This document shows, piece after piece, positions 1,798 through 10,546 of a DNA stretch of 52,647 bases; within the stretch, counting starts at the first letter, position 1; every line of letters begins with the position of its first letter. The notes beneath the pieces are model-generated. The model ran no database searches. It had not been told where the DNA came from and was given only the letters and a program-made list of their open reading frames with translations. The DNA is taken from NCBI GenBank assembly GCA_017427065.1, contig JAFRTL010000019.1:1-52647 (forward strand), read 5' to 3'. Origin of the DNA: Bacteroidaceae bacterium (GTDB lineage: Bacteria; Bacteroidota; Bacteroidia; Bacteroidales; Bacteroidaceae). A program made the translations under genes and the position numbers.

Positions 1798-1805
1798 TAC
1801 ATTTG
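1798..1805 (+). promoter_or_regulatory. -7 element of the threonine operon promoter
   Basis: TACATTTG matches the TAnnTTTG consensus exactly. The -33 region (around 1775) is weak. A start near 1812 would put the 5' end about 23 nt upstream of the threonine-rich leader ORF and just before the left arm of the 9-bp inverted repeat at 1825-1833. Confidence 0.6.
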
Positions 1806-1834
1806 CATCCGATATTCTAATAAAACGTAGAAAA

Positions 1835-1897
1835 ATGAGAGAAACAACCCTTTTGACAACCGTCACATGCATGACCACCACAACCCTTCGGGGTTAG
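1835..1897 (+). CDS. thrL: threonine-rich leader peptide of the thr operon (putative attenuator)
   Basis: A 20-codon ORF encodes MRETTLLTTVTCMTTTTLRG, with 9 Thr codons including a run of four just before the end. It lies about 150 bp upstream of thrA on the same strand, directly after a promoter-like TACATTTG. This is the arrangement of the enterobacterial thr leader peptide, although there is no sequence relation and no Ile codon. The ORF ends inside a tight hairpin (1882-1895) and is bracketed by a perfect 9-bp inverted repeat (1825-1833 with 1911-1919). I infer that ribosome stalling on Thr codons under Thr-tRNA shortage alters RNA folding and lets transcription enter thrA. The gene symbol is by analogy. 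Confidence 0.7.
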   Translation: MRETTLLTTVTCMTTTTLRG

Positions 1898-1907
1898 GGT
1901 TAGTTTT
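1882..1907 (+). terminator. attenuator hairpin at the end of the thr leader ORF
   Basis: AACCC (1882-1886), loop TTCG, GGGTT (1891-1895) forms a 5-bp stem with a UUCG-type tetraloop, followed by T-rich DNA (TAGTTTTGTGTTT). A second GGGTT directly downstream (1897-1901) offers an alternative partner for AACCC. The stem is short, so termination strength is uncertain. A second possible stem pairs AAAAAAGC (1967-1974) with GCTTTTTT (2008-2015). Confidence 0.5.
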
Positions 1908-2014
1908 GTGTTTCTACGTGATACACCTCTTTTCAAGATTAAAATATTCAAATTTGCAAAAATGCAAAAAAAGCGCGGAAGCCCGTAAATGGACGAAGGT
2001 TGACGATGCTTTTT

Positions 2015-2042
2015 TCAATTCTCAATTTTCAATTCTCAATTT
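2015..2042 (+). repeat. heptamer array upstream of thrA, TCAATTY x4
   Basis: Four consecutive 7-bp units (TCAATTC, TCAATTT, TCAATTC, TCAATTT) end 6 nt before the thrA ATG. The reverse complement unit, AAATTGA, forms the array upstream of argD (46336-46361), so both belong to one family. The function is unknown. Confidence 0.85.
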
Positions 2043-2048
2043 AAGAAA

Positions 2049-4478
2049 ATGAAGGTAATGAAATTCGGAGGCTCCTCCGTGGGCACTCCAGACAGCATAA
2101 AGAAAGTTAAGCGTATCGTAGAGCAGGCTGGCGATGATGTTATCGTGGTGGTTTCTGCCTTAGGAGGCGTGACTGACAAACTCCTCAGCATCTCGAAAAT
2201 CGCTGCACAGGGAGATGCTTCCTATAAAGCGGCTCTGAGTGACATCTGCCTGAAGCATACGCTGATGGTGGAGCAAGTGATTCCACAAAGCAGCGCCAGA
2301 GAGCAACTGCAGATCAAGGTACAAGCCATGCTTGGAGAGTTGCAGAACATCTTCCAAGGCATCTACCTCATCAAGGACCTCTCTCCTAAAACCTCGGATA
2401 CTATCGTGAGCTATGGTGAGCGCCTTTCATCAACCATCTGTGCAGTTCTTTGTGGAGCGCAATGGTTCGACTCCCGTGAGTTCATCAAGACTGAGAAGAA
2501 GCAAGGGAAGAACTTCCTGGATACAGAACTGACCAACAAACTGATACAAGATACGTTCTCTCCCCTACCTCGTCTTTCTTTGGTGCCAGGTTTTATCTCT
2601 ACCGATAGGGATTCTGGGGAAGTGACCAACTTAGGGCGTGGAGGAAGCGACTATACGGCTGCCATCATTGCAGCGGCCCTAAATGCGGATTCTCTGGAGA
2701 TCTGGACGGATGTAGATGGATTTATGACGGCAGATCCTCGTGTGATCTCTACGGCATATACCATCAGTGAACTGACTTATACGGAGGCTACGGAGCTTTG
2801 CAACTTCGGTGCAAAGGTGGTGTATCCGCCTACTATCTACCCTGTTTGCCATAAGAACATCCCTATCTTGATCAAGAATACGTTCAATCCCGAAGGGAAA
2901 GGAACCGTGATTCGTGAAGGCTTATCAGGTTTCGAGAAAGCCATCAAGGGTATCTCCAGCATCAATGACACCAGCCTCATCAACGTGCGAGGCTTAGGTA
3001 TGGTGGGTGTGATTGGTATCAACAAGCGCATCTTCCGTGCTTTGGCAGATAATGGCATCAGCGTGTTCTTGGTATCACAGGCCTCTTCTGAGAACTCTAC
3101 CTCCATTGGTGTGAAGGATGAAGACGCTGCGAAGGCTTGTGCCGTACTGAATGAAGAATTCAGTAAGGAGATAGAAACGGGAGAATTGTTCCCCATTACC
3201 TCTGAAGAGGGATTGGCTACCGTAGCCATTGTGGGTGAGAACATGAAACATACACCAGGTATCGCTGGTAAACTTTTTGGTACGTTGGGACGAAATGGTA
3301 TCAGCGTGATTGCCTGCGCTCAAGGTGCTTCAGAAACCAACATCTCGTTTGTAGTGGAACGCCGATTGCTGCGCAAGTCGCTCAACGTTATCCACGACTC
3401 TTTCTTCCTCTCGGAGTACCAGATGCTCAACCTCTTTATCTGTGGCATTGGCACAGTGGGAGGCAGCCTTATCAAGCAAATTCACAGTCAGCGCCAGAAA
3501 CTGATGCAAGAAAATGGTTTGCAACTGAATGTGGTGGGTATTGCCAATAGTAAGAAGTGTATTCTAAACCGCGCTGGCATCGATTTAGCTGACTATCAGA
3601 ACGAACTGAACGAGAAGGGCATCGACAGTACGCCAGAAACACTACTGCAACAAGTGCTGGATATGAACATCTTCAACTCGGTATTTGTGGATTGCACGGC
3701 TAACGCACAAGTGGCCGATCTCTATAAGGACCTGTTAGAACATAATATCTCGGTAGTGGCAGCCAATAAAATCTCTGCTTCTTCAAGCTATGACAACTAT
3801 AGCCTGCTGAAACACATTGCGCATACGCGTGGGGTGAAATACCTCTTCGAAACCAACGTGGGTGCAGGTTTGCCAATAATTAACACCATCAACGACTTAA
3901 TTCATAGCGGTGACAAGATTCTGAAGATAGAGGCCGTACTTAGCGGTACGCTGAACTTCATCTTCAACGTCATCAGCGCCGATGTTCCGCTAAGCAAGGC
4001 TATCCATATGGCAAAGGAACAAGGTTATTCTGAGCCTGATCCTCGCATCGACCTTAGTGGGAAGGATGTGATTAGGAAGTTGGTGATCTTGGCACGTGAA
4101 GCAGGTTACAGACTGGAGCAAAGCGATGTGGAGAAGCATCTCTTCATCCCAGATGCCCTGTTTGAAGGAACATTGGACAACTTCTGGAAGAATGTGTCAC
4201 AATTGGATGCCGATTTTGAATCTCGTCGTCAGAAACTGACGGAAGACGGAAAGCGCTGGCGTTTCGTTGCCAAATTCGAGAACGGAAAGGCAACGGTCGG
4301 TTTACAGGAAGTTGGCATGGGACATCCGTTCTATGGTTTGGAAGGTAGCAACAACATCATCCTGCTTACCACTGAGCGCTATAAGCAGTATCCAATGATG
4401 ATCCAGGGTTATGGTGCTGGTGCGGAAGTGACAGCTGCGGGAGTCTTTGCAGATATCATGTCTATTGCAAACGTATAA
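2049..4478 (+). CDS. thrA: bifunctional aspartokinase / homoserine dehydrogenase
   Basis: An 809-aa fusion catalysing ATP-dependent phosphorylation of aspartate and NAD(P)H-dependent reduction of aspartate semialdehyde to homoserine. The aspartokinase domain starts with KFGGSSVG (residues 5-12) and includes SYGERLS and GRGGSDYTAA. ACT regulatory repeats follow at about 310-460 (GLGMVGVIGINKRIF, AIVGENMKHTPGIAGKLF). The dehydrogenase domain begins near 465 with the Rossmann motif FICGIGTVGGS and ends at the C-terminus. The length is usual for ThrA/MetL-type fusions. It is the first structural gene of the threonine operon, with thrB-like and thrC behind it, and the Thr-rich leader supports threonine control. 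The ATG at 2049 starts directly with the conserved domain. Confidence 0.97.
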   Translation: MKVMKFGGSSVGTPDSIKKVKRIVEQAGDDVIVVVSALGGVTDKLLSISKIAAQGDASYKAALSDICLKHTLMVEQVIPQSSAREQLQIKVQAMLGELQNIFQGIYLIKDLSPKTSDTIVSYGERLSSTICAVLCGAQWFDSREFIKTEKKQGKNFLDTELTNKLIQDTFSPLPRLSLVPGFISTDRDSGEVTNLGRGGSDYTAAIIAAALNADSLEIWTDVDGFMTADPRVISTAYTISELTYTEATELCNFGAKVVYPPTIYPVCHKNIPILIKNTFNPEGKGTVIREGLSGFEKAIKGISSINDTSLINVRGLGMVGVIGINKRIFRALADNGISVFLVSQASSENSTSIGVKDEDAAKACAVLNEEFSKEIETGELFPITSEEGLATVAIVGENMKHTPGIAGKLFGTLGRNGISVIACAQGASETNISFVVERRLLRKSLNVIHDSFFLSEYQMLNLFICGIGTVGGSLIKQIHSQRQKLMQENGLQLNVVGIANSKKCILNRAGIDLADYQNELNEKGIDSTPETLLQQVLDMNIFNSVFVDCTANAQVADLYKDLLEHNISVVAANKISASSSYDNYSLLKHIAHTRGVKYLFETNVGAGLPIINTINDLIHSGDKILKIEAVLSGTLNFIFNVISADVPLSKAIHMAKEQGYSEPDPRIDLSGKDVIRKLVILAREAGYRLEQSDVEKHLFIPDALFEGTLDNFWKNVSQLDADFESRRQKLTEDGKRWRFVAKFENGKATVGLQEVGMGHPFYGLEGSNNIILLTTERYKQYPMMIQGYGAGAEVTAAGVFADIMSIANV

Positions 4479-10435: not shown

Positions 10436-10455
10436 AGAAAAGGGGTTACTTTTCT
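10436..10455 (-). terminator. possible expression-platform hairpin of the TPP riboswitch
   Basis: On the minus strand, AGAAAAG (10455-10449), loop TAACCC, CTTTTCT (10442-10436) forms a 7-bp A/U-rich stem directly after the aptamer, followed by a short GTTT. ACCCCT (10446-10441), in its loop and right arm, is complementary to AGGGGT at the aptamer 5' end (10530-10525), suggesting a competing antiterminator pairing. Confidence 0.4.
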
Positions 10456-10532
10456 TCTCTATCCCTACGCCAGCATTATCTGGATCAGGTCAATGGGTAT
10501 GATCTCAGCCCGTCATATTAGGGCACCCCTAT
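10455..10532 (-). ncRNA. TPP riboswitch (THI element)
   Basis: The minus strand carries the conserved aptamer blocks in order: AGGGGTGCCC (10530-10521), GGGCTGAGATCATACCC (P3/P2 side, 10513-10497), GACCTGATC and CTGGCGTAGGGA with GATAATG between. These match the THI-box consensus (CTGAGA, ACCC, CCTGATC, GATAATGC, GCGTAGGGA). It lies in the leader of the thiamine receptor operon, about 43 nt upstream of the start codon, and should reduce expression when TPP is plentiful. Outer boundaries are approximate. Confidence 0.95.
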
Positions 10533-10546
10533 TATGAAATCGAGGG

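Follow-up and report, generated by a model that had tools for sequence, protein, structure and literature searches.

The genes of the threonine branch in a Bacteroidaceae bacterium, thrA, an apgM-type gene and thrC, are preceded by a short, threonine-rich open reading frame (ORF) and a set of RNA hairpins. They lie near the start of a 52,647-nucleotide stretch of DNA, here called the window (GenBank assembly GCA_017427065.1, contig JAFRTL010000019.1, positions 1 to 52,647 of the forward strand). This leader belongs to a conserved family and, as far as sequence comparison can tell, is probably a cis-acting, ribosome-coupled attenuator of thrA-apgM-thrC that senses threonine and methionine and works through a non-canonical output hairpin.

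The thrABC operon of Escherichia coli is preceded by the thrL leader, a Thr-rich short ORF with hairpins around its stop codon, and gammaproteobacterial thr leader peptides carry both Thr and Ile codons. The initial annotation of the window, made from its sequence, knew of no thr leader of this kind in the Bacteroidetes, and the literature that we searched, in which most subscription papers are missing, describes no thr leader from Bacteroidota. Small ORFs reminiscent of leader peptides occur in the 5' untranslated regions of Bacteroides thetaiotaomicron, in a report from whose main text the words "threonine" and "thrA" are absent (PMC7366714). For Flavobacterium psychrophilum, a structured 5' element upstream of hisG, a pheA element and leader-peptide clues at amino-acid operons are described (PMC9723704). 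Leader peptides had at one time been shown only in Proteobacteria and Actinobacteria, according to a study that adds new ones in Firmicutes (PMC2965389), and "Bacteroid" is absent from the main text of a further article (PMC8632094).

Results

Organization of the locus

The features of the leader and the genes behind it, all on the + strand, are as follows.

1798-1805 (+): promoter box TACATTTG, read in the window, of the Bacteroidota -7 type (TAnnTTTG)
1825-1833 (+): P0, 5' strand ACGTAGAAA, half of a 9-bp inverted repeat and possible alternative partner of H2
1835-1897 (+): leader peptide ORF, MRETTLLTTVTCMTTTTLRG followed by a stop, read in the window; 20 codons, 9 of them Thr
1842-1850 (+): P1, 5' strand AAACAACCC, within the leader ORF; pairs with 1897-1906 in the fold
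1882-1895 (+): H1, hairpin AACCC-TTCG-GGGTT, overlapping the stop codon (1895-1897)
1897-1906 (+): P1, 3' strand GGGTTAGTTT, directly 3' of the leader stop; from the fold and a permutation test
1908-1926 (+): H2, hairpin GTGTTTC-TACGT-GATACAC with conserved loop; from covariation; -3.8 kcal/mol alone
1911-1919 (+): P0, 3' strand TTTCTACGT, inside H2; perfect 9-bp inverted repeat with 1825-1833
1967-2015 (+): downstream hairpin with A-run and U-run arms, candidate intrinsic terminator of the lineage; -16.9 kcal/mol, z -2.4
2049-4478 (+): thrA, bifunctional aspartate kinase/homoserine dehydrogenase I; NCBIfam NF006959, 1033.9 bits
4484-5686 (+): apgM-type gene, proposed homoserine kinase; NCBIfam TIGR02535, 549.2 bits, and NF003242, 560.8 bits
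5716-7002 (+): thrC, threonine synthase; NCBIfam TIGR00260, 297.2 bits

The three genes together make up the threonine branch. The initial annotation had described the Thr-rich ORF between promoter box and thrA, the UUCG-loop hairpin at 1882-1895, a GGGTT downstream of it (at 1897-1901) and the perfect 9-bp repeat, and every one of these is present. It had missed Met sensing and the H2 hairpin, which is the most conserved part of the leader.

The leader is a conserved family in front of threonine genes

R1, a covariance model of the leader core, was built from 38 sequences and run against 399 genomes from the family to which the window belongs. It matched 110 of them at E<=0.1 and 95 at E<=1e-5, the latter in 11 of 30 genera. 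The simple motif T.TCTACG.G was present within 700 nucleotides (nt) upstream in 30 of 81 loci (80 named ThrA loci plus the window); the exact H2 motif is missing from 51, and the model adds L006 and L018, bringing the members to 32 of 81. From 142 model matches, two partial or secondary ones (L194 and the second match at L195) were dropped, leaving 140, of which 118 are unique, the window included; L195 is spurious and stands outside all counts. An ATG-started ORF leads into H1 in 116 of these 118, and the next gene is thrA or apgM in 116 of 117 leaders, the exception being L174, which is left unassigned. The degenerate L190 and L193 stand outside the frame and P1 counts, and L186 also outside the P1 count. 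The leader starts come from a script, which probably misjudged a few (e.g. L126, L124 and L010). The thr leader is thus a real conserved family. The initial annotation had proposed looking in related genomes for a conserved Thr-rich ORF and compensatory stem changes; relatives carry the former, and P1 and H2 the latter.

In one genome (G300), the thr leader L174 is followed by a different ORF in thrA's place, perhaps an inserted mobile gene. Matches in genus g45 are weak (E about 0.005-0.014), and the one inspected, L193, has the ORF, H1 and thrA without a clear H2; these may be real members.

A broader model, R2, served for order-wide and phylum-wide searches under stricter filters, with which weak matches were possibly lost, and gave 8/393 in the order and 7/395 in the phylum at E<=0.01, including, in both, the same four strong family members. 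All seven remaining matches were inspected, and only L197 (aspartokinase) and L201 (hisG) lie at a fitting gene. Since the matches outside the family are few and weak, the full element seems to belong to the window's family.

Of 114 members, 110 have the box TAnnTTTG in the 75 nt that precede the leader ATG, as compared to 0 of 115 control windows, the control being 75 nt taken 150-225 nt after H2 and so partly coding. As in an attenuator, a promoter-like box lies upstream of the ORF, and the element precedes the first biosynthetic gene.

Codon content of the leader agrees with the products of the downstream genes

Codon usage was compared between reading frames over the 12 codons before the core, in 97 thrA leaders and 17 leaders in which an apgM-type gene comes first. 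In frames 0, 1 and 2 of the thrA leaders (n=97), Thr codons make up 22.7, 5.8 and 2.7%, and Met codons 14.1, 0.4 and 0.9%. All four Thr codons are used. The enrichment of product codons that marks an attenuator is therefore confined to the frame of the short ORF, so that amino acids, not bases, seem to be under selection.

The 17 unique members with an apgM-type gene in thrA's place, which is followed by thrC in both loci followed further (L191 and L192, one genome), differ in their codons. Thr accounts for 40% and Ile for 10.5% of their last 14 codons, with no Met, versus 25% Thr, 18% Met and 1.9% Ile in thrA leaders; the absence of Ile remarked on in the initial annotation thus holds for the window peptide and not for these relatives. 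Met is present in 96 of 99 thrA leader peptides and in none of the 17 apgM-first ones (Fisher's test, 1e-17, a value overstated since the sequences are related), and one of the three Met-less thrA leaders, L190, was counted in the wrong frame; its TTG-started ORF does contain Met. The genus pattern is the safer statement: thrA-first leaders with Met occur in eight genera (g1, 31 of 32; g29, 29 of 29; g18, g19, g24, g25, g40 and g41) and apgM-first leaders without it in four (g28, three; g29, one; g36, twelve; g42, one), with one genus on both sides. Genome G391 holds both kinds, its thrA having its own leader, with Met. A full thrA is present in 15 of the 16 genomes with an apgM-first leader (G311 gave none); the model does not match at thrA of the other 14, the best other score being E 0.65, at some distance from the start of the gene.

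ThrA feeds both Thr and Met, and apgM-thrC only Thr. The amino acids encoded in the leader thus correspond to those that the downstream genes supply, and codon content is exchanged together with operon content. The peptide tail, MT[LP]RG, is conserved.

Pairing within the leader RNA

The window leader folds at -52.3 kcal/mol (z -2.78). One stem, P1, joins the first ORF codons to the bases directly behind the stop. The initial annotation had made the second GGGTT an alternative partner in H1, and a simple + strand scan does flag 1882-1901, where AACCC meets this later GGGTT and AGTTTTG follows; in the minimum-energy fold, the same GGGTT is the P1 3' strand and pairs with 1846-1850 of the ORF. 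Across 114 leaders, P1 pairing averages -11.23 kcal/mol for a leader's own strands and -9.12 kcal/mol (standard deviation 0.205) for permuted ones, with 0 of 10000 permutations as low. Examples are TTGTACG with CGTACAA (L159), AACTATCC with GGATAGTT (L090), ACAACTGC with GCAGTTGT (L165) and AAACAACCC with GGGTTAGTTT in the window. A fold based on alignment (MAFFT plus RNAalifold) missed P1.

H1 (ACCCYTNGGGGT) overlaps the stop codon, and its CCC/GGG stem is invariant in 98 of 98 aligned sequences. Over the same 98, 84.4% of the cells of the H2 stem are paired, with two-sided changes at 4 of 7 pairs, and the loop, URCGY, matches CTRCGYG in 97. For the whole structure, two-sided cells number 30 versus 11.7 in shuffles (0/500 as high), pairs with two-sided changes 5 versus 2.6 (9/500) and further pair types 12 versus 10.0 (47/500); slid structures score lower. 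P1 and H2 are thus supported by compensatory changes.

Behind H2, 70 of 116 members have a further stem, H3, which adjoins H2 without a linker in 69 of the 70 and varies in sequence (GCTTAC/GTAAGC, GTCTGC/GCAGAC, GCCAG/CTGGC, GTTTGC/GCAAAC). The other 46, type I, lack H3; in these, T makes up 52-87% at each of positions 3-7 behind H2, forming a U-run. This sorting was done by script, which misplaced a few (e.g. L158, L176 and L140). A UUUUUCAGCAGUUUUU-like stretch recurs behind H2 in H3-less members (L096-L107 and others), in H3's place.

The enclosing 9-bp repeat, P0, had been given emphasis that it does not bear out. Among members, 26% have a P0 match of at least 7 nt, most of them in the window's genus, versus 3% for shuffles, and P0 is not formed in the window's minimum-energy fold; it is a feature of the lineage and not family-wide.

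His and ilv leaders for comparison

Upstreams of hisG in Bacteroidota provided a comparison set (52 genomes, 50 upstreams fetched, 46 with a readable start; ATG, GTG or TTG starts allowed; L263-L312), and 41 of the 46 readable ones have a short ORF with at least three His codons. In the window's own genome, ilvD (L385, G000:C4) is preceded by a leader peptide, MNKLTSLNLVDLIIVRLVVVEL with its stop, and then, read by eye, by an antiterminator, GTGAGAAAGG, and a terminator, CCTTTCTC...GGGAAGGCTTTTT. Because its own ilvD has this textbook leader, ribosome-coupled attenuation is plausible in the window's organism. The ilvD leaders L383, L384 and L386 are like L385.

H2-like hairpins at other genes

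H2 recurs behind a peptide of another kind. L201, a distant and weak model match before hisG, encodes MNGFNTYHLHLHHHHHVVIR and a stop, followed by an H2 of sequence ATGTTTC-TACGC-GAAATAT. In its genus, g251, which belongs to another order, TTTCTRCGYGAAA (UUUC-URCGY-GAAA) stands right behind the stop of the His leader at 18 of 23 hisG loci; among the remainder, the stem is kept and the loop changed in L361, L362 and L364, and the hairpin is missing in L348 and L353. The stretches inspected have no U-run directly behind the hairpin, and in some (L351, L360) one lies further on. A C-rich stretch often follows the H2-like hairpin in the His leaders of g251 (L201, L297, L343-L366). Since the same hairpin sits on another sensing peptide, we take H2 as the output part of the leader. 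The H2 shared by thr and His leaders may reflect common descent or convergence.

The other match with a fitting gene, L197 (G671), lies before an aspartokinase and has a Lys-rich peptide (MKKIDKIINKNTKSRTMHKSKMTPFGVK, then stop), H1 and an H2 of sequence GCATCCC-TACGT-AGGATGC. It is perhaps a Lys/Thr/Met leader; the stretch is very A-rich, and 16 of 39 relatives match at E<=0.5, none with a like score (G671 7e-4, next best 0.048).

Two further ideas about H2 were rejected. As a genome-wide site, the pattern TTTCTACGYGAAA has 37 hits in 32 of 148 genomes of the class, and the reversed pattern exceeds 37 in a partial sum over the first half alone; 27 of the 30 matches kept as loci fall in stop-to-stop frames of at least 120 codons, the other three being the thrA leader L237, L245 at a contig end, and L251. 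As a mimic of the Thr anticodon, of the kind known from E. coli thrS, the H2 loop fails: 11 of 98 sequences carry C at the position needed to complete CGU, and in a 7-nt loop the triplet on show would be ACG or GCG instead. H2 was found upstream of none of 25 ilvD genes.

Discussion

We think it very probable that expression of the thr operon is tied to translation of the leader's Thr and Met codons. Transcription would start just behind TACATTTG, and the ORF would be translated while RNA polymerase makes the hairpins behind it, the Thr and Met codons gauging charged tRNA-Thr and tRNA-Met, for the end products that thrA feeds. The position of the ribosome would select which of P1, H1 and H2 (plus P0 in the window's genus) folds. 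With ample Thr and Met, the ribosome would reach the stop within H1 and cover H1 and the P1 3' strand, leaving H2 free, and H2, with H3 or a U-run, is proposed to lower transcription into thrA. When they are scarce, a stalled ribosome would shift the balance and thrA would be expressed. Predicted H2 formation in thrA leaders (n=95) is 0.53 for the free RNA, 0.55 with a stall mid-Thr and 0.70 with the ribosome at the stop, a slight tilt in favour of H2 as the OFF form.

Several observations weigh against this proposal. A stall at the first Thr is also predicted to give H2 formation of 0.68 in thrA leaders, in a weak folding model, and in apgM-first leaders the prediction barely shifts (0.45 free, 0.49 first Thr, 0.39 mid, 0.49 stop). 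In the window, the minimum-energy fold contains P1, H1 and H2 side by side. The one exclusive pair is P0 and H2, which overlap, and P0 is confined to a lineage, so that the predicted fold does not support a clean two-state switch. Because P1 and H2 are not exclusive, our confidence in a ribosome-coupled attenuator was lowered slightly, and it remains fairly high. In six of the 114 leaders (L143, L150, L168, L175, L176, L177; three of them apgM-first), P1 pairing is weaker than -5 kcal/mol, so that P1 is not universal. H1 shows no covariation (in L190, a G-C replaces the outer A-U), and of 98 sequences 53 leave one H2 pair (columns 44-54) unpaired. Of the sampled family genomes, 289 of 399 have no R1 match at E<=0.1. 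A scan for a hairpin plus U-tract was positive in 27 of 115 thr leaders (3 when shuffled), versus 34 of 46 hisG upstreams (0 when shuffled). The classical attenuation layout seen by the initial annotation thus stands as regards a thr leader-peptide element, and falls short in the canonical terminator. A stricter scan (8 of 115 thr leaders versus 15 of 46 of the hisG positive controls) was too insensitive to use.

What H2 does at the end of such a leader admits two accounts. The element could be a fully classical attenuator whose intrinsic terminator is AU-rich and poorly recognised, whether H2 or H3 with a U-run or the window's 1882-1901 or 1967-2015, which strikes us as possible and somewhat improbable. 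The U-run of the type I members fits it, as do the excess of scan-positive leaders over shuffled ones, the AGTTTTG behind the hairpin flagged at 1882-1901, and the hairpin at 1967-2015, which with its U-run arm could be a terminator and has a counterpart of other sequence at about the same place in the close relative L088. Yet the 70 members with H3 go on with A (91% at the first position) and not U, H2 is weak on its own and is not itself among the hairpins that the scan counted, its near-invariant loop is needless for a terminator, and an identical scan finds terminators at most hisG genes. That loop conservation, while the stem varies (e.g. CGUCUC-UACGC-GAGACG in L176 and GCGUUCC-UACGC-GGAACGC in L186), would suit a hairpin, H2 alone or with H3, that is recognised by a trans-acting factor or by RNA polymerase in pausing, antitermination or Rho-linked termination, with the leader ribosome merely opening or closing it. 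The adjoining of H2 and H3 and the like hairpin behind His leader peptides outside the order also argue for recognition, but no such factor is known, no excess of the exact hairpin over its reversed control is seen across genomes, and the ilvD upstreams lack it; we rate this account, too, as possible and somewhat improbable. The same qualified weight goes to a wider proposal, by which H2 (UUUC-URCGY-GAAA and stem variants) would be a transferable output module of leader-peptide attenuators in the Bacteroidota that replaces the U-tract terminator, has its loop read by RNA polymerase or another factor, and is joined to Thr+Met (thrA), Thr(+Ile) (apgM-thrC) or His (hisG) peptides, the sensing codons being rewritten as the gene content of the operon changes; we consider it doubtful on balance.

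Explanations in which the ORF does not sense translation fare poorly. A small-molecule or tRNA-sensing RNA (riboswitch or T-box), to which the ORF likeness would be incidental, could account for the strongly conserved stem-loops; the frame-specific codon bias and the exchange of Met for no Met speak against it, and the model searches gave it nothing, so that we regard it as highly improbable. At the gathering threshold, Rfam matched only a thiamine pyrophosphate (TPP) riboswitch in the whole window; with E up to 5, the window leader gave one chance microRNA match and four relatives gave seven small RNA, microRNA and antisense matches far below gathering scores, and the gammaproteobacterial threonine leader model did not match the window leader. 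That the small peptide is itself the product, as a secreted or stable micropeptide with incidental RNA stems, is scarcely credible. Its conserved tail would fit, but the tail tracks the bases of H1 (R changes to W in L041/L129, Q in L167 and L in L169 with the H1 stem kept), and the rest of the peptide is variable except for Thr/Met and the P1 codons.

The ribosome-coupled attenuator proposed here resembles thrL of E. coli in its Thr-rich short ORF before a fused aspartokinase-homoserine dehydrogenase gene and in the hairpins around the stop. Unlike in thrL, the peptide is unrelated, Met and not Ile is co-sensed before thrA, so that the pairing of Thr with Ile is absent from thrA leaders, Ile rises in apgM-first leaders only, and a canonical terminator is found in a minority of family members. 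With the Bacteroidota his leaders it shares a short ORF rich in cognate codons before the first gene, whereas those mostly have a terminator-like hairpin with a U-tract, and an H2-like hairpin in one sampled genus. The ilvD leader of the same genome also has a leader peptide followed by hairpins, but with a textbook antiterminator and terminator and no H2. The phage HK022 put RNA consists of tandem hairpins that act on RNA polymerase; the likeness lies in two adjoining stem-loops with conserved loop bases, put being a phage element without a leader peptide. Leader-peptide attenuation is itself a known kind of regulation, and the output hairpin H2 is possibly novel.

Elsewhere in the window, the TPP riboswitch (RF00059, 60 bits), its sole Rfam match, lies at 10445-10540 on the - strand.

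The leader also bears on the uncertain homoserine kinase candidate, TIGR02535, which it ties to Thr control because it directly precedes the apgM-type gene in four genera. In B. thetaiotaomicron, BT2402 (TIGR02535) is reported as important for growth in minimal medium unless threonine is added, and it did not enable an E. coli thrB mutant to grow (PMC7311316). The change of sensed amino acids with operon content would amount to a natural experiment, and a conserved hairpin without an obvious terminator raises the testable question of how such leaders stop RNA polymerase. If the reading is true, the Bacteroidaceae, major gut bacteria, would gain a described thr attenuator that seemingly senses two end products, Thr and Met.

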